Assembly (NCBI GenBank): GCA_018712245.1
Contig: DVHE01000022.1
Location: 1 to 64,000 of the forward strand
Direction: 5' to 3'
DNA: 64,000 bases
From: Candidatus Avoscillospira avicola
GTDB lineage: Bacteria; Bacillota; Clostridia; Oscillospirales; Oscillospiraceae
Below, one piece after another: positions 27,823-64,000 of the stretch. Each line of letters opens with the position of its first letter. Position 1 is the stretch's first letter. The notes beneath the pieces were generated by a model that saw only the letters and a list, made by a program, of their open reading frames with translations, made no database searches and was not told the DNA's origin. A program made the position numbers and the translations under genes.

Positions 27823-29057
27823 ATGGAAGCCAAGACTTTTGGGAGCTTTCTGGCCGCGCTGCGCAAGGCCCAAGGCATGACGCAGAAAGAGCTGGCGGAA
27901 CGGCTCCATATATCTGATAAGACCGTCAGCCGCTGGGAGCGGGACGAGGGAACGCCGGACCTGGCCATCATTCCGGTGCTGGCGGAAATCTTCGGCGTCA
28001 GCTGCGACGAGCTGCTCCGGGGAGAGCGCCGTTCGCCCGCCGACCGGGTGGACGCCGCCACCACGGCGAAAGGGGAGCGGGAACGGCGGCGTTTGCTCCA
28101 GGCCGGTCTATCCCGGTACCGCAGTCAATCGATGATTGCAGTGGGTCTTGACATGGCGGGCCTGATCGCGGCACTGATTTGCAATCTGGCTTTTTTGCAG
28201 GCCGTGCTGGGCTTTTTCATCGGCGCGCTGTTCCTGGTGGCCGGAGCCGTCTGCCAGGCGATATTTATGAACCAGGCCTTTTCCAGCGTCGCGGATTCGG
28301 ACTTACCGGAAGAGGCGCTGCAATCCTACCGGCAATCCGTTATCGGTCTGGCCTTCTGGTCCTTTGGGCTAACCTTGGTGCTGCTGGGCTTCAATGCGCC
28401 GCTGCTGCTGGTGGACGCCTATCTCGGCCTGTCCGCCGGGAGTGCGCTGCTGCTGGGCATTGTTGGAGGCGCAATAGGGTTGGTAATCTATGGCGTCGCC
28501 CGGTATTTTGTAAAGGCTGCCCTGGTGCGCCGCGGCGTTCTCAGCCTGGGGGCGCGGGAGGATATCTATTGGAAACGCCGCCGGCTGCAGGGAAAATGCG
28601 CCCTGGTGCTGGCGGCGCTGCTGCTGACCACGGCAGTGGTCCATTGGGCGGCAAACCAGTTTTTTGGCCCTTATCAGACCATGGTGGGAACCACCTTCAC
28701 GGACTTCGCAAGTTTTGCTGCCTATATGGAAGAAGATGTGCCGGTTTCGGCAGTGAGGCCAACCAGCAGGCGGCGCCGGAGGATACGTCGATTGCACCGG
28801 AGGAGATATCACCTTCTACCTTGGAAGACGAGAATGGCAATGTGCTGGTGTCATACCAGCGGCGCAATTACAGCGTGTTTCGGATTTCCTATGGGGGAGA
28901 GAACTATCTTCCCATCACGGTTTACACTTACAGCGATTTAGCGGCGGCAAAGCAGCGCGTGGCGCTTCGGAACTTCTGCTTTGTTGTGGCCTATGTGCTG
29001 GAAACTTCCGCTGTGGCGGCGGCATATCTTCTGCGGCGGCGGCAGGTCGCCGCTTGA
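27823..29057 (+). pseudogene. XRE-family HTH membrane protein, frameshifted
   Basis: HTH MTQKELAERLHISDKTVSRWERDEGTPDLAIIPVLAEIFGV; frame switches near 28720-28755, continuing as GSEANQQAAPEDTSIAPEEISPSTLEDENGNVLVSYQRRNYSVFRISYGG. Confidence 0.6.
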
Positions 29058-29298
29058 CGGCGCGGCTCCAGCGGGTCGAAAAAGTATTTTTGCCCCGCTG
29101 TCCCCTGTTTTTGCAACTTTAAGAAAGTTGCAAAAACGACCTTATTGAACGAGCATGGCCCAGGCCAGCTTCTCTTGCCCTGCTGGCAATTCACCTTCGG
29201 GGGCCCTTTGCCCCCTGCACACATCCCCCGCTGCTCTGTTGCAACGGCTTTTATCATAGTTTTTTGACAGTCTCAGGCCGCGGCTTGACGCCGCGGCC
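29048..29298 (-). repeat. Dispersed hairpin-flanked intergenic repeat, copy A
   Basis: Reverse complement contains GAGACTGTCAAAAAACTATGATAAAA...GCAACAGAGCAGCGGGGGATG...TTTTTGCAACTTT..AAAGTTGCAAAAA...CTTTTTCGACCCGCTG, shared with copy B. Confidence 0.8.
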
Positions 29299-31119: not shown

Positions 31120-31333
31120 GGGTGCTGCGCACCGCGCAGCCCCCGAGACTGTCGAAAAACTATGATAAAAACCTCCGCAACAGAGCAGCGGGGGATGGGC
31201 GCAGGGGGCAAAGGGCCCCCTGCGCGTTCAATAAGAGTGTTTTTGCAACTTTTATAAAGTTGCAAAAAACTAAGGCAGCGTGGCGAAAACACTTTTTCGA
31301 CACGCTGGGGTGCTGCGCACCGCGCAGCACCCT
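31120..31333 (+). repeat. Dispersed hairpin-flanked intergenic repeat, copy B
   Basis: Same internal sequence as copy A in opposite orientation; flanked by GGGTGCTGCGCACCGCGCAGC hairpins on both sides. Confidence 0.8.
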
Positions 31334-31344
31334 TTGGCGTTCGA

Positions 31345-31905
31345 TCAGGAATCCAGCGCCGGGTTCGTAGCGTAGATGTTTTTCGAGTTGAGTCGCTGGC
31401 GCAGCAGCTCAATCGCCTCGCCGAAGCGCTGGAAGTGGACGATTTCCCGCTCCCGCAGGAAGCGGATGACGTCGTTGACGTCCGGGTCATCGCTCAGGCG
31501 GAGGATGTTGTCATAGGTGACACGGGCTTTCTGCTCAGCGGCCAGGTCTTCCGTCAGGTCGGCGATGGGGTCGCCCTTGACGGCCATGGACGCCGCGGAC
31601 CAGGGGGAGCCGGAGGCGGCGGTGGGGTATACGCCGGCGGTGTGGTCCACGAAGTAGGGCATAAAGCCGCTCTCCTCCATCTGCGCGTCGGTCAGCTTCC
31701 GCGTGAGCTGATGTACAATGGCGCCGATCATCTCCAGGTGGCCCAGCTCCTCAGTGCCGATGTCGGTCAGCAAACCCTTTAGCTCCGGATAGGGCATGGA
31801 GTAGCGCTGGCTGAGATACCGCAGCGAGGCGCCCAATTCTCCGTCTGGACCTCCATACTCCAATAGGCTATAAAATGGGCGAGGTTGTGGGAAGCGCAAA
31901 AACAC
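31345..31905 (-). pseudogene. cotJC: Manganese catalase / spore coat protein CotJC, 3' portion interrupted by the prophage
   Basis: EYGGPDGELGASLRYLSQRYSMP..LLTDIGTEELGHLEMIGAIVHQL; the 15 residues before it do not look like CotJC. Confidence 0.8.
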
Positions 31906-31931: not shown

Positions 31932-31964
31932 AACAAGCGCGGCGGGGGCTGCGCTTGTTTTTTT
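31932..31964. terminator. Terminator between recombinase 3' end and attachment site
   Basis: AACAAGCGC-N10-GCGCTTGTT + T-run. Confidence 0.7.
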
Positions 31965-33441
31965 ATATGCTGGCGCGGTAGGTGATGGTGAGGAGGTTTG
32001 CCTCTTTATCGTAGGTGCAGCGCTCGACGAGGGAGCGGAAGGCGGCGTTTTTCATCTCCAGCGTGGCGCTGGGGGAATGGAAGGTGGAAAGCGCCTTCTT
32101 GATGTGGGAGCGGATGGCGGCGTTCATGGCGGTGGGATCGGTCTGGGCGGTGAGTTTCTTGATCTGGTATCGCGTGCTGTCCATATCCCTGACAATGGAC
32201 TCCCTGGCGGCGGAGAAATCCTCGAGGTCGATGACGCCGGCCAGGTAGGCGTCCTGGAGGCGGGCCTTTTTGGCTTGGAGGCTGCGGAGGGAGGCTTGCA
32301 GCGCCGTGATCTGCTGCATGGAGGGGGACGAGACGGCGGAAACCTGGAAGGAAAGGGACAGGCCGGACGCTGCGTCCTCCTCCAAGCGGGCCAGGATGGC
32401 GTCCTCCAGGGCATCGGGCAGGACGCGCTGGGAGTGCTGACAGCGGCCCTTGACATAGTTATTGCACAGGAAATAGGAATAGCCATGGGCGCGCTGATAA
32501 ATGAGCGTGGTGCCGCAGGAGGCACAGCGGACGACGCCGGAAAGCCAGTGCTTCAGCTCGGACGTGGGGCGGGCCTTGTAGCCAAACTGCGCTTTGAGCG
32601 CGTTCGTCCGGGCATTGGCGGCATCGAAAAGCGCCTGGGAGACCAGGGGCTGGTGGGGCGCGTCGGAGAGAATGATATTTTCGTCCGTGAAGTTCCGGCG
32701 GGTGCGGCCCGTGGGGTTCCACCGGAGTTTGCCGATATAGACGGGGTTTCGGATGATATACTCAATTGTACGACTTTCGAACGGGTTCCCCCGGTGGGTA
32801 CGGACACCGCGGGCATTGAGGGAGCGGGCGATGGCCGTATAGCCCTGGCCGTCCGCGAAGGACTGGAAAATCTCCTGGACCAGCGCAGCCTCTTCCGGGA
32901 CAGGGATCAGCATCCCGTCCTGCACACGGTAGCCGAAGGAGGGCGTGGCCTGCAGCTTGCCCTTCTGGGCGTTGACGGTCATGGACCTTTTGACCTCCTG
33001 GGAGAGGCGGATGGAATAAAATTCGTCCATCCACTCAATGATGCGCTCGATCAAAGAGCCGAACGGCCCGGCGATCAGCGGCTCGGAGATGGAAACGACG
33101 TCCACGCCGCACTTGGAGCGGAGGATGGATTTATAGAAAATGCTTTCCTCTTGGTTCCGGGCGAAGCGGGAAAACTTCCAGACCAGGAGAACGGAGAAGG
33201 GCGGGCTGGACTTGGCGGCGGCGATCATCCGCTGGAACTCCGGGCGGCGGTCGGCTTTCTTGCCGGAAATACCGGCGTCGATGTAGACATGGTCGGAGAG
33301 CAGAATGAGGTTATGGGTTTTGCAGTATTTTTGAATTTCCACCAGCTGAGACTCCGGGGAAAGTTCCGCCTGGTCATCGGTGGAGACGCGGATATAGGCA
33401 GCGGCGAACACGGGGGACTGGGGAGCGGGCATGGGGATCAT
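31963..33441 (-). CDS. Large serine recombinase (integrase)
   Basis: AAYIRVSTDDQAELSPESQ; LLVWKFSRFARNQEES; recombinase domain; zinc ribbon CASCGTTLIYQ..YFLCNNYVKGRC. Confidence 0.95.
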   Translation of the reverse strand: MIPMPAPQSPVFAAAYIRVSTDDQAELSPESQLVEIQKYCKTHNLILLSDHVYIDAGISGKKADRRPEFQRMIAAAKSSPPFSVLLVWKFSRFARNQEESIFYKSILRSKCGVDVVSISEPLIAGPFGSLIERIIEWMDEFYSIRLSQEVKRSMTVNAQKGKLQATPSFGYRVQDGMLIPVPEEAALVQEIFQSFADGQGYTAIARSLNARGVRTHRGNPFESRTIEYIIRNPVYIGKLRWNPTGRTRRNFTDENIILSDAPHQPLVSQALFDAANARTNALKAQFGYKARPTSELKHWLSGVVRCASCGTTLIYQRAHGYSYFLCNNYVKGRCQHSQRVLPDALEDAILARLEEDAASGLSLSFQVSAVSSPSMQQITALQASLRSLQAKKARLQDAYLAGVIDLEDFSAARESIVRDMDSTRYQIKKLTAQTDPTAMNAAIRSHIKKALSTFHSPSATLEMKNAAFRSLVERCTYDKEANLLTITYRASI

Positions 33442-34289: not shown

Positions 34290-34952
34290 TTATGCGTTGG
34301 CGGCGGGCGGTGAAGGAGAGGACCCGTCCGCCCCCTTTTCCTCGGCCATCAGCTCCTGGCGGTAGGCCTCCACGCGCTCTTCAATGGTGGAATTTGAGAT
34401 CGTTGATTGAACAGACCTCTTGAAATTTCCGGATGATACCAAGAAATCTGCATATTGTTTAAGGTTTTGTTTTCCAATATCATTTAACTTTCGATATTGG
34501 AGAAGCAAGGACAATTCATTATCGTTAAGAGTGGGGAGTGTAGAACCAATTGCCCATTCACGACCCAAGAGATGATCAGTTGAGAAAGATAAGGCTTCAG
34601 CAATATTGCTTAGTTCGACAGGGTCTGGAAAGTCTTCGAAATTTTCTAGTTCAATAAGTCTGGACTCGCTCATATGTGCAAGCTCGGCTAGATGCTTTGA
34701 ACTCCATCCTCTGCGTTCTCTCTCAGATTTGATCTTATCTGGAAATGGAAAATAGAAACTATCATCCGCCAATAAAGTAACTTTAACACCGAGTTTTTCT
34801 GCAAAAGAATTTACAGTCTTTATATTTGGTTCACGTTCACTATTTTCATAACGACTGATTGCTTGTTTTGTTGTTCCGAGTTGATCTGCTAATTCTTGTT
34901 GAGTAAGGTTAAGAGTAGTACGAATAAACTTAAGTTTTTCACCGAATTTCAT
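34290..34952 (-). CDS. CI-like repressor with two predicted HTH domains
   Basis: LTQQELADQLGTTKQAISRYENSEREPN; second HTH IKSERERRGWSSKHLAELAHMSESRLIELENFEDFPDPVELSNIAEAL. Confidence 0.85.
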   Translation of the reverse strand: MKFGEKLKFIRTTLNLTQQELADQLGTTKQAISRYENSEREPNIKTVNSFAEKLGVKVTLLADDSFYFPFPDKIKSERERRGWSSKHLAELAHMSESRLIELENFEDFPDPVELSNIAEALSFSTDHLLGREWAIGSTLPTLNDNELSLLLQYRKLNDIGKQNLKQYADFLVSSGNFKRSVQSTISNSTIEERVEAYRQELMAEEKGADGSSPSPPAANA

Positions 34953-39987: not shown

Positions 39988-40308
39988 ATGGACGAGCTGA
40001 CCATGGAACAGTGGGAAATGGGCATCTATGAGGATGCCGTGGAGACCTGGGGCCGGGAAGCCCAGCTGATGAAAGCCGCCGAGGAGCTGAGCGAACTGGC
40101 GGCGGCGATCAACCGCCTCCTGTGCTGCGAAAAGTCTGGGTACCGGAGCCGGGAAGAGGTCATGGCGGAGCTGCAGGGAGAGTGGGCCGACGCTGAGATC
40201 ATGCTCAACCAGCTCCATGTGATGCTGGATATGGACGACGAGGTCTATATCGGCAAGCTGGAGGCGCTGGAGGAGAAGATCCGGAAGGCGCGGGAGAATG
40301 CGGGATGA
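39988..40308 (+). CDS. MazG-like nucleotide pyrophosphohydrolase-type phage protein
   Basis: LMKAAEELSELAAAINRLL..EVMAELQGEWADAEIMLNQL. Confidence 0.6.
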   Translation: MDELTMEQWEMGIYEDAVETWGREAQLMKAAEELSELAAAINRLLCCEKSGYRSREEVMAELQGEWADAEIMLNQLHVMLDMDDEVYIGKLEALEEKIRKARENAG

Positions 40309-41126
40309 AAGCCGTGTTCCGATATCCAGGAAGCAAATGGTCCATAGCAGAGTGGATCATCAGCCATTTCCCGGAAGGGTACGAGAAAATGGTGTATCTG
40401 GAGCCGTTTCTTGGGAGCGGGGCTGTGTTCTTCAACAAACAGCCCGGGGCAGTGGAGACGATCAACGATCTTGACGGAGATGTGGTAAATCTATTCCGCG
40501 TTTTACGGGAGCGCCCGGAAGAGCTGAAACGGGAATTAGAATTGACTCCATACAGCCGGGAGGAATATGACAGCGCTTTTGAGCCTTGCGATGATGAACT
40601 AGAACGGGCAAGACGGTTTATGGTTCGCACGACGCAGGCAATTGGAGCCAAGATGAACGGGAAATGCGGCTGGAGAAACCACAAACAGATGAAAATCGGT
40701 GGAACTGCCTGCAAGTGGGCTGGGATTACGGACGTGATTGACGAGGCAGCCAAACGGCTGCGAGGGAATACATCGAACTTGGTTCAAATTGAGCGGATGG
40801 ACGCGCTTCGGCTCATAGAGCGATACAACAATCGGGATGTGCTGATGTATGTCGATCCGCCATATGTGAGATCGACCAGGAAATCCGGTAGGCTTTACCG
40901 GAATGAGATGGACGATGCCCAGCAGGAAGAACTTCTTCGGATATTGTCAGAGACAAAGGCAAAGGTTGTATTGTCCGGCTATGACAATGCACTTTACAAT
41001 GATGCGCTCAGCGGGTGGCGAAAGGATCAGACGATGTCACAGACTACGTCAACAGTTATGGCTGTAGAGACGATATGGATGAACTACGAGCCGCCGGCGG
41101 AGCAGATGGAGGTGGACTTCGGATGA
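40305..41126 (+). CDS. DNA adenine methyltransferase (Dam family)
   Basis: FRYPGSKWSIAEWI; LEPFLGSGAVFFNK; VLMYVDPPYVRSTR. Confidence 0.92.
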   Translation: MKAVFRYPGSKWSIAEWIISHFPEGYEKMVYLEPFLGSGAVFFNKQPGAVETINDLDGDVVNLFRVLRERPEELKRELELTPYSREEYDSAFEPCDDELERARRFMVRTTQAIGAKMNGKCGWRNHKQMKIGGTACKWAGITDVIDEAAKRLRGNTSNLVQIERMDALRLIERYNNRDVLMYVDPPYVRSTRKSGRLYRNEMDDAQQEELLRILSETKAKVVLSGYDNALYNDALSGWRKDQTMSQTTSTVMAVETIWMNYEPPAEQMEVDFG

Positions 41127-41195
41127 AGTTTTCCAATGTGGCCGCTGTGGCGGCGCAGTATCGGAGAAAAGCGGAGCGGGATGGAGGGAAACGGC

Positions 41196-42410
41196 GTGGC
41201 GCTGACGCATTTAAGCCTGTTCACCGGGATCGGCGGCCTGGACCTGGCGGCGGAAATGGCCGGGTTTCGGACCGTGGGGCAGTGCGAGTGGGCAGACTAT
41301 CCGACAAAGGTGCTGGAAAAGCACTGGCCGGCGGTGCCGCGGTGGCGGGACATCCGGACGCTGACGTCGGAGAGTTTCTATGAGCGGACTGGGTTACGAA
41401 CAGTTGACGTTGTTTCCGGCGGATTCCCGTGCCAGCCATTTAGTCTTGCCGGGAAGCGAAGAGGCAAGGACGATGACCGCTACCTCTGGCCGGAAATGCT
41501 TAGAGTTATACAGGAAATCCGGCCCGCTTGGGTCATTGGTGAGAATGTTGGTGGGTTCGTCTCAATGGGTCTCGACCAGGCGCTATCTGACCTGGAGGCC
41601 GCAGGCTACGAAGCGGGGGCGATTGTATTTCCGGCTTGTGCCGTTGACGCCGCCCACAGACGTGATCGATGCGCGATTATGGCCCACCGTAACTGCGACG
41701 ATTGCGGACCACGGGGGACCAAATCAGAGAGACAGCAGTGGGCGGCCTGGCTTGGAAATGGCTGCGAGAATGTGGCCGACTCCAAGAGCGAACGATGCGG
41801 AAAAACGAGGGAACATATCCAAAGATCCGAGGAATGGGCTTCCGGGCGTTGTGCTTTGGCCGACACCGAGCGCATCAGATGCCGGGAGAACGAAAATAAA
41901 CCCGCATATGACCAAGAATGGAACGGTCCAGCATATCGGGAAAACGGGCGGGCAGAGCTATGCGAGACTGGACCAGGTTGTGGCGATGTTTCCAACGCCG
42001 AGGGCGAGCGATGGAAAGGACACGATTACGATCCCGCCGAGCAGAGTGAGCGAACCGGGAAAGGACTCGCTTTCAACCAGAATTGCAAGAGATTTGCTTC
42101 CGACGCCGAAAGCGAACTGCGGGACGGGACCGAGCAACTGCGAGACAAGGCAGGGGTCGCCGGATTTGCAGACGGTCTGCAGCGGGACGCTGAACCCGGA
42201 TTGGGTGGAGTGGCTGATGGCGTTCCCGCCTGGATGGACCGATATTGGATAGACGAGCCGGATATTCCGAGGATCACGGCGAAAAAGGACCACTGGGCGG
42301 ATCGGCTGCGGGCGCTGGGGAACGCGGTGTACTGGCGGCAGTTTTACCCGATATTCCGGGGGATCATGGAGATAGAAATGATGGGGGATTTGAACAATGC
42401 GGTACAGTGA
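41196..42410 (+). CDS. DNA cytosine-5 methyltransferase
   Basis: [94 protein letters not shown]. Confidence 0.92.
41380..42252 (+). CDS. Overlapping +1-frame ORF nested within the cytosine methyltransferase
   Basis: 290 uninterrupted codons, [16 protein letters not shown] start, WPTP[RS]A[NS]DA repeats, C-terminal [20 protein letters not shown]. Confidence 0.6.
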
Positions 42411-42789
42411 ACAGACATACAAAAAAGCGCTCGTCGAGCTGGCCAGACTCAGAGAAACGCTGGGGGAGCATGAGCGCGCCGCAGTAGATTTTGTAGCTGA
42501 GGCAATCGCGGAAAAGGCCGACCGGGAATACAACACCAAGCTGGGCGATTGGGTGAGCGTGGAAACACCTCCGACAACGCAGGGGTGGTATCACGTCGCA
42601 ATTTTAGACCTGAAAACTGGAAAATATACGGTGGAACAAGACCTTTACTCCATCGAACTGGCAAAAACGTACGGTCATGAACCGGGTTTCTGCAAAGCGA
42701 ACAGATGGGAGGAACGGGAGCGAATTGATTATTGGTGCAGATTTCCAGACCCGCCATACCGCCGACCGCCGGAGGGAGAAAATGCCTGA
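42397..42789 (+). CDS. DUF551-like phage hypothetical protein
   Basis: [44 protein letters not shown]. Confidence 0.55.
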
Positions 42790-43573
42790 ACACATCCTAT
42801 CTCTCAGCTACGGGAAAGACAGTCTGGCCTGCCTGGGCGCCATCGAGGAGCTGGGGTGGCCGCTGGACAGGATCGTTCATGCGGAGGTATGGGCAACGGA
42901 CAAAATCCCGGCAGACCTTCCGCCGATGGTGGAGTTTAAGAAGAAGGCGGACAAGATCATCAAAGAGCGGTGGGGGATTGAGGTTGAACACGTCAGGAGC
43001 CGTAGGACATATCAGGACTGCTTTTACATGATATGCGGGAAATCTGGGAGGCAAGCAAAAAGCAAGTGCGCAGGGAGTATTTACGGATGGCCGTTTCAAC
43101 GTGGGCCGTGGTGCAATTCACGGCTGAAGCAGCACGTGTTAGAAAAACTGCCAAAAGATGCAATGCAATATGTGGGAATAGCAGCAGATGAGCCTGGGCG
43201 GTTCCATGTATTGAGAGGGAATAAAACTTCCCCGCTTGTAGAGGCAGGATGGACTGAGCGTGATTGCTGGGAGTGGGATGAGAAGAACGGGCTGCTTTCT
43301 CCTACGTATACCACCGCGACCCGCGGCGGGTGCTGGTTCTGCCATAACCAGGGCGTGGGGCAGCTTCGGCTCCTGCGAAAGCACTACCCGGATTTGTGGG
43401 CGCTGATGCTCAAATGGGACAATGACAGCCAGGTCACATTCAAGGCGGACGGCCACACGGTCCACGACTTTGACCGGCGGTTCCAGTTGGAGGACGATGG
43501 GCTGATATCGCCGGATGACAGCGTATTCCGGTGGGAGATGCTGGACGCGGAACTGAATTACAGGTGGTTTTGA
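42782..43573 (+). CDS. PAPS reductase / ATP-pyrophosphatase-like phage protein
   Basis: ILSLSYGKDSLACLGAIEELGWPLDRIVHAEVWATD (SxGKDS P-loop); CWFCHNQG. Confidence 0.85.
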   Translation: MPEHILSLSYGKDSLACLGAIEELGWPLDRIVHAEVWATDKIPADLPPMVEFKKKADKIIKERWGIEVEHVRSRRTYQDCFYMICGKSGRQAKSKCAGSIYGWPFQRGPWCNSRLKQHVLEKLPKDAMQYVGIAADEPGRFHVLRGNKTSPLVEAGWTERDCWEWDEKNGLLSPTYTTATRGGCWFCHNQGVGQLRLLRKHYPDLWALMLKWDNDSQVTFKADGHTVHDFDRRFQLEDDGLISPDDSVFRWEMLDAELNYRWF

Positions 43574-48110: not shown

Positions 48111-48653
48111 ATGCAGCAGGAACTGGCGAAAACCGAAAAAACCATGGAGAAGAAAAAGCGCGGTCCGAAAGGCAAATACAGCGCGAAGGGCCTGGAGGAG
48201 GCGGTGGACGCCTATTTCCGGCGGATATCGAAGCTGGTACAGGTGACGCTGCCGGATGGTTCCCTGGCAACCAATGCGGACGGGGAATGCGTGTGGAGGC
48301 TGGTGTACTTCGTCCCGCCCAGCATCACGGCGCTGTGCCTGGAACTGGAGATCGACCGGCGGACCTGGGCCAACTACGCGGCGGACAAAACCAAGGGGCC
48401 GGTTGTGGAGCGGGCCAGGGCCAGGATCGAGGCATATCTACAGGAGCAGCTGCTGACGCGGGAAAAGGGCGTCCAGGGCGTGATTTTCAACCTGACGGCC
48501 AACTACGGATGGAGGGACAGGAAGGAAGTGGCGCTGAGCGAGGAAACCCGGAAAAGCCTGGAGAAGCGGCGGGAGCCGATGACCATGGAGGAGAAGCTGG
48601 CGCTGCTCCAGGAAGCGGAGGCCATTGTGAGAGACCATGGCGCGGAGGAATGA
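48111..48653 (+). CDS. Terminase small subunit
   Basis: Position before TerL; SITALCLELEIDRRTWANYAADKTKGPVVERARARIEAYLQEQLL. Confidence 0.8.
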   Translation: MQQELAKTEKTMEKKKRGPKGKYSAKGLEEAVDAYFRRISKLVQVTLPDGSLATNADGECVWRLVYFVPPSITALCLELEIDRRTWANYAADKTKGPVVERARARIEAYLQEQLLTREKGVQGVIFNLTANYGWRDRKEVALSEETRKSLEKRREPMTMEEKLALLQEAEAIVRDHGAEE

Positions 48654-50187
48654 AAGCCGCCTGGACCAGGCCGTGGAGGCGGCGCAGTGGCTGAAGGAGC
48701 TACGGGAGACCAACAACGACACATTCCTTCCCCTTTTTTGGGACAAGCACCGATACCTGGTTTTGAAAGGCGGCGGCGGCAGCGGGAAGAGCATTTTTGC
48801 CGGGCGGAAAATCCTGGAGCGGGCGGCTACGGAGCCGGGGCACCGGTTTCTGGTGGTGCGGAAGGTGGCCAAGACGCTGCGAACCAGCTGCTTCAATCAG
48901 CTGAAAAGCCAGGCCTATGAGTACTACGAGGACCAGGTGGAGAAGATCCCGAAGGGCGAGAGCAGCGATATGTACATCACGTTCCGAAACGGGAGTCAGA
49001 TCCTGTTCGCGGGGCTGGATGACGTGGAGAAGCTGAAATCCATCTTTGACATTACGGGCATCTGGATCGAGGAGGCCAGCGAGGTACTGGAGAGCGACTT
49101 CAACCAGTTGGACATCCGGCTGCGGACGCAGTGCCCGTATTATCTCCAGTTCATCATCAGTTTTAACCCCATCAGCATCACGCACTGGCTGAAACGCCGG
49201 TTCTTCGACCTGGATATCTCAGACACGACGGAGCGGGAGAACTTCCGGGCGCTGACCAGGACGCATGAAAGCACGTACAAGGACAACCGATTTCTCAGAC
49301 TGGAGGCCATTCGGACTCTGGAGAATTTCAAACACACAGACCCTTACTACTACCGGGTGTACTGCCTGGGCGAGTGGGGCGTGACGGGTACCAGCGTCTT
49401 TGACGCCGAGAAGGTCACGGCCCGGCTGCTGGAGAAGATCAAGCCGGCGGCCATGGGGGATTTTACATACAGCTACGACGGGATGCGCGTGACGGACATC
49501 CGATGGACCGACAGCAAGGCCGGCGGCATCAGCATTTACAAGCCGCCGGAGGCCGGTGTGCCGTATGTCATCGGGTGCGACACAGCGGGAGACGGCAGCG
49601 ACTCCTTTGTGGCCCAGGTACTGGACAACCGGACCGGAGAGCAGGTGGCGGTGCTGCGGCAGACCTACGACGAGGACCTGTTTGCCAAACAGGTATTTTG
49701 CCTGGGGATGCACTACAACACGGCGCTGATCGGCGTCGAGACCAACTACTCCACGTTCCCGGTGATGGAGCTGGAGCGGCTGCGGTATCCGAAGCAATAC
49801 GTCCGGGAGAGCATTGACGACTACACTCACAAGGTGAAAAAGTCCTATGGATTCCAGACCAACAGCAAGACCAGACCGGTGATTATCGCCGGGCTGGTGG
49901 AGGTGGTACGGGAGAGCGTGGAGCTGATATGCCACACCACAACGCTGGAGGAAATGCTGACATTCGTCCGAAATGAGGATGGACGGGCGGAGGCAGAGGC
50001 GGGCGCCCACGACGACTGCGTGATGGCACTGGCCATCGCCCACTACATCCGTCCCAAGCAGCGGTATTTACAGGAGCTGCCGAGCGAAGAGAAGCGGAAA
50101 TGGACGGCGGATATGTGGGAGGACTACCGGCGGGCCAGCACGGAAGTGCAGGCGTATCTCCGAAAAAAATGGGGGGAGCCGGGATAA
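48637..50187 (+). CDS. Phage terminase large subunit
   Basis: RYLVLKGGGGSGKSIFAGRKILERA Walker A; IWIEEASEVLESDF Walker B; VIGCDTAGDGSDSFV nuclease motif. Confidence 0.93.
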   Translation: MARRNESRLDQAVEAAQWLKELRETNNDTFLPLFWDKHRYLVLKGGGGSGKSIFAGRKILERAATEPGHRFLVVRKVAKTLRTSCFNQLKSQAYEYYEDQVEKIPKGESSDMYITFRNGSQILFAGLDDVEKLKSIFDITGIWIEEASEVLESDFNQLDIRLRTQCPYYLQFIISFNPISITHWLKRRFFDLDISDTTERENFRALTRTHESTYKDNRFLRLEAIRTLENFKHTDPYYYRVYCLGEWGVTGTSVFDAEKVTARLLEKIKPAAMGDFTYSYDGMRVTDIRWTDSKAGGISIYKPPEAGVPYVIGCDTAGDGSDSFVAQVLDNRTGEQVAVLRQTYDEDLFAKQVFCLGMHYNTALIGVETNYSTFPVMELERLRYPKQYVRESIDDYTHKVKKSYGFQTNSKTRPVIIAGLVEVVRESVELICHTTTLEEMLTFVRNEDGRAEAEAGAHDDCVMALAIAHYIRPKQRYLQELPSEEKRKWTADMWEDYRRASTEVQAYLRKKWGEPG

Positions 50188-50417: not shown

Positions 50418-52457
50418 ATGAAAAAACAGGATGAACAGAAGCTGCGGCTTTGGCAGGAGCGGCTGAGCGTCAACGAGTCGGCCTATGAGGATGAACAGGC
50501 GCGTATGACGCTGCGGGAGGAGCTGTACGCCGGAAGCAGCACGATCCGGGCCATTGTGGCCAAGGATCAGAAAACCGAGACGCCCCACGTGCGCAACATC
50601 TGCGCGGAGCTGATTGAGGCCCAGGTGGACAGCAACATTCCGGCGCCGAAGGTCACGGCCCGCCGAAAAGAGGACGAGCTGAAGGCCAAACTGATTGAGG
50701 ATATGCTCCGAAACGAGCTGGACCGGCTGCCGTTTGAGCAGATCAACGACATGATGGAGCGCACGGTGCCCATCCAGGGCGGCGCGGCGTTGCTGCTGGA
50801 GTGGGACAACAGCCTCCGCACCCACACTACCGTGGGAGAGCTGGCGATCCGGGTCCTGCACCCGCGAAAAATCGTGCCGCAGGACGGCGTTTACACCGGC
50901 GTGGAGGACATGGACTATATCATCCTCAAAATGCCGCAGACCAAGGCGTACATCCAGCGGCGCTACGGCGTGGACGTATCCGATGAGAGCGAGGACGATC
51001 CCGAGATCAAGGGGGACGATGGCGGACCGAGCGACGACATGGTCACGCAGTACATGGCGTACTACCGGAACCAAAACGGCGGGATCGGCCTGTTTTCCTG
51101 GGTTTCGGACTATGTGCTCATCGACCTGGAGGACTACCAGGCGCGGCGGCTGAAGAAGTGCGCCACCTGCGGCGCCATGGAGCCGGCGGAGGATCTGGAG
51201 AGCCTGGACGCACCGACCATGGACGGCACGCCGCCGGGCGGCCCGGGAACGATGACGCGGAAGGGGCGGAAGGCCTGCCCCTACTGCGGCGGGACAAAAT
51301 GGGAGAGCGAGGCGCAGGACAGCGAGGAGATGCCGAATCCGGTGACGCGGTCAGACGGCTCGACCATCGGCGGCATGGTGGAGCGGGTGGTGCTGGATGA
51401 GACCATGGTGGACGCCATGGGGCTGCCGATGCCCATGACAACGCTGGAGCCGATGCGCGTGCCGTACTACAAGCCGAATATCTACCCCGTGATTTTGCAG
51501 AAAAACGTCAGCGTATACGGGAAATTCCTGGGCGACTCCGACCTGGACAAGATTGCAGACCAGCAGAACAGCACCAACCGGCTGGAGGCAAAAATCCTGG
51601 ACAAGCTGCTGAAATCCGGCAGTTTTGTGACGCTGCCGTCGGCGGCGCACATTGACAACAACGCCGAGGACATGAAAACCCTGCGGCCGGACAGCCCGGC
51701 AGACATGGCCATGATTGGGGTTTATACCCTGGAGGGAGATGTCCAGCAGGACATGGCGTACTTGGCGCAGATATACGAGGAGGCGCGGCAGGTCATCGGG
51801 ATCACCGACAGCTTCCAGGGCCGGGCGGATCGGACAGCCACCAGCGGGAAGGCAAAAGAGTTTGCCGCGGCGCAGAGCGCCGGACGGCTGGAGAGCAAGC
51901 GCGTGATGAAAAACGCGGCCTATGCGGCGCTTTTTGAGGCGATGTTCAAGTTTAAGCTGGCATACTGCGACGAGCCGCGGCCTGTGACGGCCCACGATGA
52001 CCAGGGAAACCCGGTGTATGAGGAGTTCAACCGGTGGGACTTCCTGGAGCAGGACGAGGCCGGGGAGTGGTACTGGAATGATCAATTCCTCTTCTCCACC
52101 GACGACACCGCGCCCCTGGCCAACAACCGGGAGGCCATGTGGCAGGAAGCGCGGATGAACTTGCAGACCGGGGCGTTCGGCGACCCAACTAATTTGCAGA
52201 CGCTGATTCTGTTCTGGAGCCAGATGGAAACGCTCCACTATCCCATGGCAGCGGAGGCAAAGCAGTATCTGGAGCAGCAGCTGGAGCAGCAGCAGGCCAT
52301 GCAGATGCAGCAGATGATGCAGATGCAGCAGGCGCAGGCCCAGCAGATGGACCATGCAGCCGCCGGATTGGACCAGGGAACGGCCAACGCAGTGGTGCAG
52401 CAGGCGAGAGCCAAGGCGGCACAGGATGTGATGGCGGGTGCGGGCGGACAGGGATAA
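50418..52457 (+). CDS. Phage portal protein
   Basis: Position after TerL; ~680 aa; ITDSFQGRADRTATSGKAKEFAAAQSAGRLESKR; Q/M-rich C-terminus. Confidence 0.8.
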   Translation: MKKQDEQKLRLWQERLSVNESAYEDEQARMTLREELYAGSSTIRAIVAKDQKTETPHVRNICAELIEAQVDSNIPAPKVTARRKEDELKAKLIEDMLRNELDRLPFEQINDMMERTVPIQGGAALLLEWDNSLRTHTTVGELAIRVLHPRKIVPQDGVYTGVEDMDYIILKMPQTKAYIQRRYGVDVSDESEDDPEIKGDDGGPSDDMVTQYMAYYRNQNGGIGLFSWVSDYVLIDLEDYQARRLKKCATCGAMEPAEDLESLDAPTMDGTPPGGPGTMTRKGRKACPYCGGTKWESEAQDSEEMPNPVTRSDGSTIGGMVERVVLDETMVDAMGLPMPMTTLEPMRVPYYKPNIYPVILQKNVSVYGKFLGDSDLDKIADQQNSTNRLEAKILDKLLKSGSFVTLPSAAHIDNNAEDMKTLRPDSPADMAMIGVYTLEGDVQQDMAYLAQIYEEARQVIGITDSFQGRADRTATSGKAKEFAAAQSAGRLESKRVMKNAAYAALFEAMFKFKLAYCDEPRPVTAHDDQGNPVYEEFNRWDFLEQDEAGEWYWNDQFLFSTDDTAPLANNREAMWQEARMNLQTGAFGDPTNLQTLILFWSQMETLHYPMAAEAKQYLEQQLEQQQAMQMQQMMQMQQAQAQQMDHAAAGLDQGTANAVVQQARAKAAQDVMAGAGGQG

Positions 52458-55412: not shown

Positions 55413-55593
55413 CGCCAACCGCTGCGGTCGCTGCATCCGCCACTGGCGGCGCTCCCTTGCGGGCCTCCCCTCCAGGGGAGGCTTGGGAAGGTGCGTTGGA
55501 TGGGGCGCGCAGAGCGAATAGGCTTACGGACGCGCGATGCGCGCCCCTACGAAAAGACAGGAAACAAACGTCAATCACGGCGAGGAGGAGAAC

Positions 55594-58059
55594 ATGGCGA
55601 CATTGCAGGGCGTTCTGGAGCTGATCGACGACATCAAGCCCAACGCATTTTCGGACGAGGTGAAAACGGCCTGGGTCAACGAGGTCGAGGGACTGGTGCA
55701 GACCGAAGTTTTCCTCCTGGCCGTGGAGGATGTGGTGCAGTATCAGTGGCCGGCGGACAGCGGCGCGACGCTGCTGGCCAAGCCGCCCCACGATAAAATT
55801 TACTGGGTTTATCTGAGCGCCATGGTGGACTTCGGGAACGGCGAGTATGACAAGTACCAGAACACCATGCAGATGTTCAACCAGTTTTTCGGCGAGTATA
55901 TGCGATGGTACGCCCGCACCTACAACCCGGCGGACGGCGAGGCGGAGGTAAAGGGGTACTATCTCAGTGCCTATGCCATTGCCGTGGCCCACGGATTTGA
56001 AGGGACAGAGGCGGACTGGCTGGCCAGCCTCAAGGGCGAACCGGGAGACCAGGGAACCGGCCTGGATCTGCGAGGCCTTATAGCCAGCACCGATGAACTG
56101 CCGGAGCCGGAGAACTCCACACCGGGGCAGGCGTACCTGGTGGGGACAGAGGACGACAACGAGCTTTGGATTTTTGACGAGGCGCAGAACCAGTACGTGC
56201 CGGCGGGGCCGCTGCGGGGAGAAACTGGACCGACGGGACCGAAGGGCGACACGGGAGCCACCGGCCCGCAGGGGCCGAAAGGTGACACCGGCGCCACGGG
56301 CGCGGCGGGGCCGCAGGGTCCACAGGGCGAGACAGGCCCCCAGGGGCCGCAGGGTGCGGCATTTACCTATGCAGATTTCACGGCGGAGCAGTTGGAGGCG
56401 CTGACTGGCCCGCAGGGGCCGAAGGGTGACACCGGCGCCACAGGCCCGCAGGGGCCGAAAGGTGACACCGGCGCCACGGGCGCGGCGGGGCCGCAGGGGC
56501 CACAGGGAGAGACAGGCCCCCAGGGGCCGAAGGGTGAAGCGTTTACCTACAGCGACTTCACACCGGAGCAGCTGGAGGCGCTGACCGGCCCCCAGGGGCC
56601 GAAGGGTGACACGGGCGCGACGGGACCGGCGGGTCAGAAGGGCGACACCGGAGCCACCGGCCCCCAGGGGCCGAAGGGGGACACGGGGCCGCAGGGCATC
56701 CAGGGAGACCCAGGGCCGACGGGGCCAAAGGGTGATACAGGACCGCAGGGAGACCAAGGGCCGCAGGGACCGGCGGGACCGAAGGGTGACACGGGCGCCA
56801 CAGGCCCGGAGGGACCGCAGGGACCGAAAGGGGAGCCGGGGAAGGACGGCACCTCCTTCACGGTAAAGGACCGGTATGAAACGCTGGAGGAGCTGAAACA
56901 GGCCCATCCGACAGGCAAGGAGGGCGACGCCTATGCCGTGGGGACGGAGGATGACAACGTCATCTATCTCTGGTCGGAGTCGCAGCAGGATTACACACCA
57001 ATCGGAAAGCTGCAGGGGCCTGCTGGGCCGACAGGACCCCAGGGTCCGAAGGGCGACACCGGAGAGCCGGGCGCAACAGGCCCCCAGGGGCCGAAGGGTG
57101 ACACAGGAGCCACGGGACAGACAGGCCCCCAGGGGCCGCAGGGAGACCCGGGGCAGACGGGACCGGCGGGACCCCAGGGAGACCCGGGACCGCAGGGTGA
57201 GACTGGCCCACAGGGACCGGCGGGTGCTGCCGGCGAGAATGGAGGATACTATCAGCCCAGCGTTGACGACAACGGGGATTTGAGCTGGATGGGGTCCAAA
57301 GTCGGGATGCCGTCCGTACAGACAAAAAATATCAGAGGCCCGCAGGGTCCACAGGGCGCGACGGGTCCCCAGGGGCCGAAGGGCGATCCGGGCGAGACGG
57401 GTCCACAGGGACCTACCGGGCCGAAGGGAGACCCGGGAGAGACCGGCCAGGCAGGGCCGAAAGGCGATCCGGGTGAGACAGGGCCACAGGGTCCTGCGGG
57501 CCAGGACGGCGCCCAGGGGCCGAAAGGCGATCCGTTTACCTACGATGACTTTACGGAGGAACAACTGGCGGCACTGACAGGCCCACAGGGGCCGAAAGGT
57601 GATCGGGGTGAGACTGGGCCACAGGGGCCTGCGGGACAGGACGGCGCTCAGGGGCCGCAAGGACCGGCGGGTAAGGATGGCGCCAAAGGTCCCGCTGGCC
57701 CTGCCGGGCGCGGGATCACGGGGGTCACATACTCCAGCGCCACGAACAAGTGGACGATATCCTATTCAGACGGAAGCAGCGAGCAGGTGGAAGGTCCGGC
57801 TATTCCCACGCAGCTGAGCCAGCTGACCGGCGACAGCACACACCGCACCGTGACGGACGCGGAAAAATCCAGCTGGGATACCGCCGCAGACCAGGCCGCC
57901 GCCGCGATGCCGAAATCGGGCGGGACATTCACGGGGACGGTCAAGGCCGGCGGGGCCAGTTATGAAAGCCCTACGACGTATCTTCTCCGCAATACGCGGC
58001 TGGCGTCGTCTGACACCACGCCGACGGTCAACGGAGAAATCTGCTGGACATATGGGTGA
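55594..58059 (+). CDS. Adaptor-domain/collagen-like fusion protein
   Basis: N-terminal [38 protein letters not shown]; long G-X-Y repeats [20 protein letters not shown] interspersed with FTYxDFTxEQLxALTGPQ modules. Confidence 0.85.
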
Positions 58060-62643: not shown

Positions 62644-64000
62644 GTGGCATGGCTGCCGGAAATGGTGTATGCGGACCGCATCCGCAAAAAGACGCAGATC
62701 AAATTCGGCGGATATGACCACCGCGTCGGCGCCGAGGACGGGAGTATCTGGAACGAGCAGAACATTTCCAGCCGGGTGTATCCGGTTCTGGAGCCGCGGA
62801 AGCCGCGCTACACCGTGCGGCAGATCACCACGCCAAACGGCTATTACATTCACGACGGCGTCCACTACTGGGCGGACGGGACGGGCCTATACAAGGACGG
62901 GCAGAAGATCGGGGACGTGGAGAACAGCGAAAAGGTGTTCGCGTCCCTGGGCAAGTACATCGTCATCTGGCCGGACAAGCTGGTTTACCACACGCTGGAG
63001 GGGACGCTGGAAACGGTGGAACAGAGCTGGACCGGCGCGGCGAAAATCCAGGATGGGACATATTTGGACGTGGAGGCGGCCGCCAACACCATCCAGGCGT
63101 CGGGCGTGGATTTTGCCGAATACTTCCGGCCCGGGGACGCCGTGACCATCAGCGGGGCGACGGTTCACGAGAAAAACAACACCTCCATCATCATCCGAGA
63201 GGTGGACGGGGATGAACTGCGGTTCTATGAAAATTCCTTCGTCATCGAAGAGGGAGGAGACAGCGAGGCGGCGCTGACGATTAGCCGGGAGGCGCCGGAC
63301 ATGGACTTCCTATGCGAGAACGAGAACCGGCTGTGGGGCTGCAAGGGGGACACGATATTTTCCTCCAAACTGGGGGACCCATTCAACTGGAACTGCTTCG
63401 ACGGGCTGGCGACAGACAGCTACAGCGTGGACGTCGGCAGCGAGGGAGACTTCACCGGGGCGGTCAGCTATCTGGGGTACGCGGTGTTCTTCAAGCCGGA
63501 GCAAATCTACAAGGTGTACGGCAGCCAGCCCAGCAACTATCAGGTGATGGGCAGCGCGGCCCTGGGCGTGGACATCGGGAGCGGGAAGAGCCTGGCGGTG
63601 GCCGGAGAGACGCTTTTTTATCTATCCCGGGGTGGTGTGATGGCCTACACAGGCGGGCTGCCGCAGAATGCCTCTGAGGCCTTTGGGACGGAGCAATACC
63701 GAAACGGCGTGGCAGGATCCGACGGCATCCGGTACTGGATATCCATGGAGGACGCGGCCGGCGCAAGCCATCTCTTCTGCTTCGACACGCGAAGCGGCTT
63801 GTGGGCCAGGGAGGACGCAACAAAGGCCGGCGCGTTCGGATGGGACAGGGGCGTCTACATGGTCAAAAGCGACGGGGCGGTGCTGCTGATGGGGGACGCG
63901 CTCCAAGTGCCGCCGGAAGCCAGCGCAGAGGGCCAGGTGGCAAGCTGGGTGGAGTTCGGAGACTTCACGGACGAGGACCCGAACAAAAAAGGCGTAAGCA
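62644..64000 (+). CDS. Podovirus stabilization/tail-knob-like protein, truncated by window end
   Basis: GTG start, open to the window end; VAWLPEMVYADRIRKKTQIKFGGYDHRVGAEDGSIWNEQNISSRVYPVLEPRKPRY; not in the ORF track. Confidence 0.7.
   Translation, partial: MAWLPEMVYADRIRKKTQIKFGGYDHRVGAEDGSIWNEQNISSRVYPVLEPRKPRYTVRQITTPNGYYIHDGVHYWADGTGLYKDGQKIGDVENSEKVFASLGKYIVIWPDKLVYHTLEGTLETVEQSWTGAAKIQDGTYLDVEAAANTIQASGVDFAEYFRPGDAVTISGATVHEKNNTSIIIREVDGDELRFYENSFVIEEGGDSEAALTISREAPDMDFLCENENRLWGCKGDTIFSSKLGDPFNWNCFDGLATDSYSVDVGSEGDFTGAVSYLGYAVFFKPEQIYKVYGSQPSNYQVMGSAALGVDIGSGKSLAVAGETLFYLSRGGVMAYTGGLPQNASEAFGTEQYRNGVAGSDGIRYWISMEDAAGASHLFCFDTRSGLWAREDATKAGAFGWDRGVYMVKSDGAVLLMGDALQVPPEASAEGQVASWVEFGDFTDEDPNKKGVS

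Follow-up and report, generated by a model that had tools for sequence, protein, structure and literature searches.

Sporulation intervening elements have so far been known as a handful of single cases. In skin, which occupies sigK of Bacillus subtilis and Clostridioides difficile (PMC5025042), phage-derived DNA with a large serine recombinase lies in a mother-cell sporulation gene, and its precise excision restores the reading frame. SP-beta is a complete prophage in the spore-envelope gene spsM of B. subtilis, placed there via a large serine recombinase (PMC4191935). The gin element in gerE of B. cereus (PMC5595907) and the yin element in yabG of C. botulinum (PMC10747680) likewise split a sporulation gene and encode their own serine recombinase; gin, as is true of the small cotJC elements described below, is not phage-like. 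At a CotJC-family locus, prophage phi027 of C. difficile lies by the cotJC-like gene cotG (PMC11222575, PMC12122855).

Here we describe a cotJC gene of Candidatus Avoscillospira avicola that is interrupted by a prophage, as the original prediction for this DNA had claimed: the 3’ part lies in the window, the 5’ part lies past it, and phage genes lie between them. The window is the whole stretch of DNA analysed, 64,000 nucleotides (C35:1–64000 of a 90-kb contig; genome label G000). As in skin, the insert is phage DNA with a large serine recombinase in a sporulation gene; the joining of the cotJC parts was read from the sequence.

The interrupted cotJC gene and its prophage

The ORF at 31345–31905(−) encodes the 3’ part of CotJC, a Mn catalase. 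A profile search matched it to PF05067 positions 24–198 (E 1.5e-43), and the likeness begins only at the motif YGGPDGE, as predicted; the residues ahead of this motif are derived from the insert. Judged by PF05067, by rejoining and by alignment to the congener G260, the gene’s own portion runs from the attachment core on and comprises CotJC residues 28–198 (31345–31859(−)). The missing 5’ part had been expected past position 64,000 with cotJB upstream, and it was found at C35:74542–74640(−) (from the core: 74,549–74,640; PF05067 positions 1–33, E 5.3e-7). There it sits within the cotJ operon, with a fused CotJA-CotJB ORF directly upstream (C35:74644–75102(−)).

Both junctions carry a copy of a 10-bp core, AGTATGGAGG on the coding strand, followed by A/T and then by CCAGAC. 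As the word common to the two junctions, the core was placed at 31850–31859 in the window (where it reads CCTCCATACT) and at C35:74549–74558 beyond it. These positions agree with the original prediction, which put the junction near 31848–31862, with the recombinase stop codon (here at 31963) about 100 bp away, and anticipated a matching core at the far end. A perfect 13-bp inverted repeat, ATAGCCTATTGGA / TCCAATAGGCTAT, flanks the core at the element ends; the arm TCCAATAGGCTAT lies at 31859–31871 and its partner at the opposite end of the element. This is laid out as in the attP of serine integrases, and we treat it as the predicted attP. Three viral contigs from one metagenome contain an intact attP with the same core and design, so site-A phages do exist in circular or free form. 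The exact predicted attP of the G000 prophage had no match in our search of viral contigs.

Joining the two parts at the core gave a 198-amino acid CotJC with no stops and the frame exact, and this protein aligned across the junction with the unbroken CotJC of G260. The original prediction held that an intact cotJC elsewhere, with no 5’ fragment at the far end of the element, would speak against it; the fragment is present, and a PF05067 search of the G000 genome (84% complete) found no second full-length CotJC. Four features of skin- and SP-beta-type elements were found here as well: a split coding region, a recombinase at the junction, end repeats with a restored frame, and no intact copy in the genome as assembled.

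The insert is 42.7 kb long, carries phage genes that include one for an internal virion protein (PHROGs matches), and looks like a whole podovirus-like prophage. Its portion in the window, delimited by the junctions and phage genes, spans 31860–64000 and continues to C35:~74,548. PHROGs matches included the integrase, repressor, terminase, portal and tail genes of a temperate phage. The integrase is a large serine recombinase (31963–33441(−); PHROG 95, E 6.9e-112) with Resolvase, Recombinase and Zn-ribbon domains in Pfam; it is oriented like cotJC and adjoins the 3’ part, its stop lying ~100 bp from the core. A phage-type transcriptional repressor follows at 34290–34952(−). On the plus strand are two DNA methyltransferase genes (40305–41126 and 41136–42410), a phosphoadenosine phosphosulfate reductase-like gene (42677–43573), the terminase large subunit (48637–50187), the portal protein (PHROG 156; 50418–52457) and a tail fibre protein (55537–58059), all assigned with PHROGs.

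A phage ORF of 2,966 amino acids (L003:5561–14461; contig 65,560–74,460) ends just within the attR end of the element; it has a HELTH metalloprotease-like motif and only a partial PHROG match, for which PHROGs gives no function. To the left of the window’s junction, two similar intergenic repeats (28991–29260 and 31122–31330) flank genes, and the second copy comes right after cotJC. Their translation reads NYDK..RNRAAGD..RGQRAP.

The G000 host encodes Spo0A, SpoIVA and sigma E/K-type factors. In a promoter scan, the conserved CATANNAT element that precedes cotJA served as the positive control, occurring in 37 of 60 cotJ operons versus 4.2 expected by chance; the G000 sequence at this place is GCATACGATGA. 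The conserved element would be compatible with a mother-cell promoter. Sigma-E/K-like motifs upstream of the recombinases numbered 14 versus 7.1 ± 2.7 by chance. With counts near chance against the strong cotJA control, we dropped mother-cell promoters of the recombinases as a line of support.

Split cotJC genes and their recombinases in other genomes

Of 301 genomes from the Oscillospiraceae, the family of G000, 239 matched PF05067. Complementary cotJC pieces were present in 58 of the 239 (15 split at site A, 28 at site B, 10 at site C, and five in three parts), as counted by hand among the 80 genomes that had partial PF05067 matches only. In 32 of the 58 the pieces shared one contig and strand, and the elements ranged from 3 to 43 kb. 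The split points recur near codon 30 (A), codon 63 (B) and codon 134 (C), and these three were seen in other families of the phylum too. A fourth, D, near codon 176, emerged from C-terminal pieces detected by DNA pattern; in three genomes its pieces lie on the same contig and strand, 16–29 kb apart. Comparison with solved Mn catalases showed that sites A–D coincide with conserved metal-ligand motifs; the assignment of metal-binding residues within these motifs follows what is generally known of the family. The G000 insertion is at site A, codons 28–33, in the YGGPDGE motif. For control we searched SpoIVA in 151 genomes of the family, matched it in 127, and found none split by an element; the few two-part matches resemble a frameshift, contig ends or weak side matches. 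We had tried sigK (TIGR02846) as the control gene, and it was insufficiently specific.

Some genes are in three pieces. In a Defluviitaleaceae bin, breaks at sites A and C leave three pieces inside 8 kb, all on the same strand (L098:2394–10181). At G144:C1 (L073, L074) the last of three pieces lies ~17 kb off on the opposite strand, an arrangement that resembles an inversion of the region.

When site-A recombinases were searched against GTDB genomes, 61 of the loci of the 80 best relatives had a cotJC piece, and the recombinase stop lay 0–79 bp from cotJC in 42 of the 50 loci where the gene could be parsed. Another 11 of these best 80 had other sporulation genes as targets: eight SleC-like genes and one each of cwlD, pdaB and spoVD. 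The SleC-like genes encode SpoIID and peptidoglycan-binding domains; from these domains and general knowledge we presume their identity, for two of the eight (L083, L118) from sequence likeness only. In a FastTree phylogeny of 155 recombinases the enzymes grouped largely by target site, those of site C forming one clade, and eight changes of target were counted across the five main ones. The four cotJC sites are served by at least four types of recombinase. In Ruminococcus bromii ATCC 27255 (L146), the site-A recombinase beside a cotJC piece has a match limited to residues 12–350 and is possibly a truncated enzyme.

No recombination directionality factor was recognised for the site-A recombinases, that of G000 included. 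Conserved ORFs of 54–81 amino acids lie directly before the type B and type C recombinases, overlapping or abutting the recombinase start, and are candidate directionality factors. The type B family, which had no match in Pfam or NCBIfam, is upstream in L046, L047, L048, L042, L060, L061, L072 and others, and the type C family in L053–L056; sequence examples from the two families are ...AFLYHLKKALLLALKEQGQLNAMQ... and CKSIF...TRIWLELVRRAA....

The elements themselves differ widely in content. Site-B elements of G098, G167 and G261 are ~3 kb long and hold little beyond the recombinase and a pyrimidine-nucleoside phosphorylase (L051, L045 and L044, respectively), and the site-C element of G242 (L055) carries ogt- and tag-like DNA-repair genes (O6-methylguanine methyltransferase, methyladenine glycosylase). 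Elements in cotJC span full phages to 3-kb vertically inherited units.

Proposed rejoining, selection and competing explanations

Joining the pieces gave an in-frame, stop-free CotJC reading at all 33 junctions analysed. The joins were found by shared junction words searched in register, and three site-C cases were redone by hand. Some rejoined readings stop short at site D, where the gene is broken again. Two three-part loci were also reconstructed: G151 was fully joined, and the pieces of L098 continue one another at both junctions.

The G000 prophage has no vertical relative, and the evidence on selection comes from insertions shared by its relatives. Each of three species pairs shares an insertion, colinear across gene and element: G053/G199 (87.9% identity over 7.8 kb), G215/G089 (88.8% over 10.9 kb) and G167/G261 (79–81%). 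Pooled over the cotJC parts of these pairs there were 173.5 synonymous and 12.5 nonsynonymous changes (omega ~0.02), where the nonsynonymous share expected without selection is 77%. Split cotJC is under strong purifying selection in the three vertical pairs, and their recombinases are conserved as well (omega 0.08–0.16).

We consider it likely that the G000 element is a phage integrated at a fixed cotJC site, that it exits precisely with cotJC whole in the mother cell, and that it belongs to a large class in gut Clostridia. A temperate podovirus-like phage would integrate via its own large serine recombinase at codons 28–33 and, judging from relatives, would leave precisely, in the way that skin exits sigK and SP-beta exits spsM. 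The gene would be whole when the mother cell builds the spore coat, and the spore chromosome would retain the element. For the class, rejoining of cotJC appears well supported by the relatives with vertically inherited insertions, and to this extent the skin-like rejoining of the original prediction is supported. Its timing we infer: since the elements persist in the line of descent, excision is expected in cells that leave no descendants, i.e., mother cells. The part that the G000 prophage itself plays is likewise extrapolated from its relatives.

The same data can be set against ordinary lysogeny, in which cotJC would be chosen as a conserved gene dispensable in growth and would stay dead until the prophage is lost. 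Loss of CotJC-type proteins gives mild mutant phenotypes in B. subtilis and C. difficile (PMC11222575, PMC12122855), many of the insertions could be recent, and the G000 element is a complete phage; lacking a vertical record, it may on its own be explained by simple lysogeny, as an ordinary lysogen merely using the same site. For the class we find lysogeny unlikely. A dead gene would decay, and vertically inherited split cotJC has not: both of its parts, together with the recombinases, have been held by purifying selection over long divergence. That the other targets of these recombinases are likewise sporulation genes also argues against it. Conservation of both parts would equally be expected if each were translated by itself and the two polypeptides came together as a functional CotJC, but only one of 33 3’ pieces had a Shine-Dalgarno sequence and a start codon, so separate production is improbable. 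In G215/G089 the 3’ part is preceded by only six open codons, none of them a start, and the 5’ ORF of G053/G199 ends in an element-encoded tail that evolves fast, unlike the gene portion. We give separate polypeptides very little credence. Conserved parts, a conserved recombinase and a missing start make rejoining the simplest reading.

Chimeric contigs or mixed strains could in principle mimic a split, and metagenome bins make up many of the genomes. The two conflicting contigs of G219, which we had weighed as two states of one gene, are 80% identical and rather come from two organisms; this bin is probably a mixture, and other bins may be mixed as well. Nevertheless, split cotJC was found in the single-contig complete genome G098, in a 3.16-Mb contig (G292) and in isolates of Pseudoflavonifractor (P. 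gallinarum DSM 107456, P. phocaeensis An569), Petroclostridium (sp. X23) and Ruminococcus bromii (ATCC 27255), and the same cores, sites and recombinase types recur. An artefact of assembly or binning is hardly conceivable as the source of the pattern.

Beyond this locus, we lean towards the view that gene interruption with rejoining at sporulation is a common lifestyle of mobile DNA in gut Clostridia. Sporulation genes, chiefly the four metal-ligand motifs of cotJC, would be the dedicated targets of several integrase lineages, and some elements would have become permanent and vertically inherited, with host metabolic genes, leaving a working coat catalase solely to the doomed mother cell.

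Comparison with known intervening elements

In a major gut family, roughly one in four sampled species has a split cotJC, at four fixed sites and sometimes in three pieces. Many gut Clostridia would be misannotated as having no coat catalase. Comparison can now be used to test what draws mobile DNA to mother-cell genes, and isolates with split cotJC have been identified. Our literature search on interruption of cotJC and sporulation genes by integrases, with most subscription journals and preprints outside its coverage, found no prior description of split cotJC. At the phi027 locus the cotG gene is described as downstream of attR, and PMC11222575 and PMC12122855 do not report its interruption or rejoining.

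Unlike skin, the element described here is a whole phage, and its target is a late coat gene rather than a sigma factor. SP-beta shares with it the complete prophage in a spore-envelope gene, but differs in phage type and in the gene that is hit; moreover, cotJC is entered at four sites by different recombinase types and sometimes carries two elements at once. Whereas gin and yin are single reports from few strains, elements in cotJC occur across many genera, and the small ones include some that are vertically inherited and carry host-type genes.
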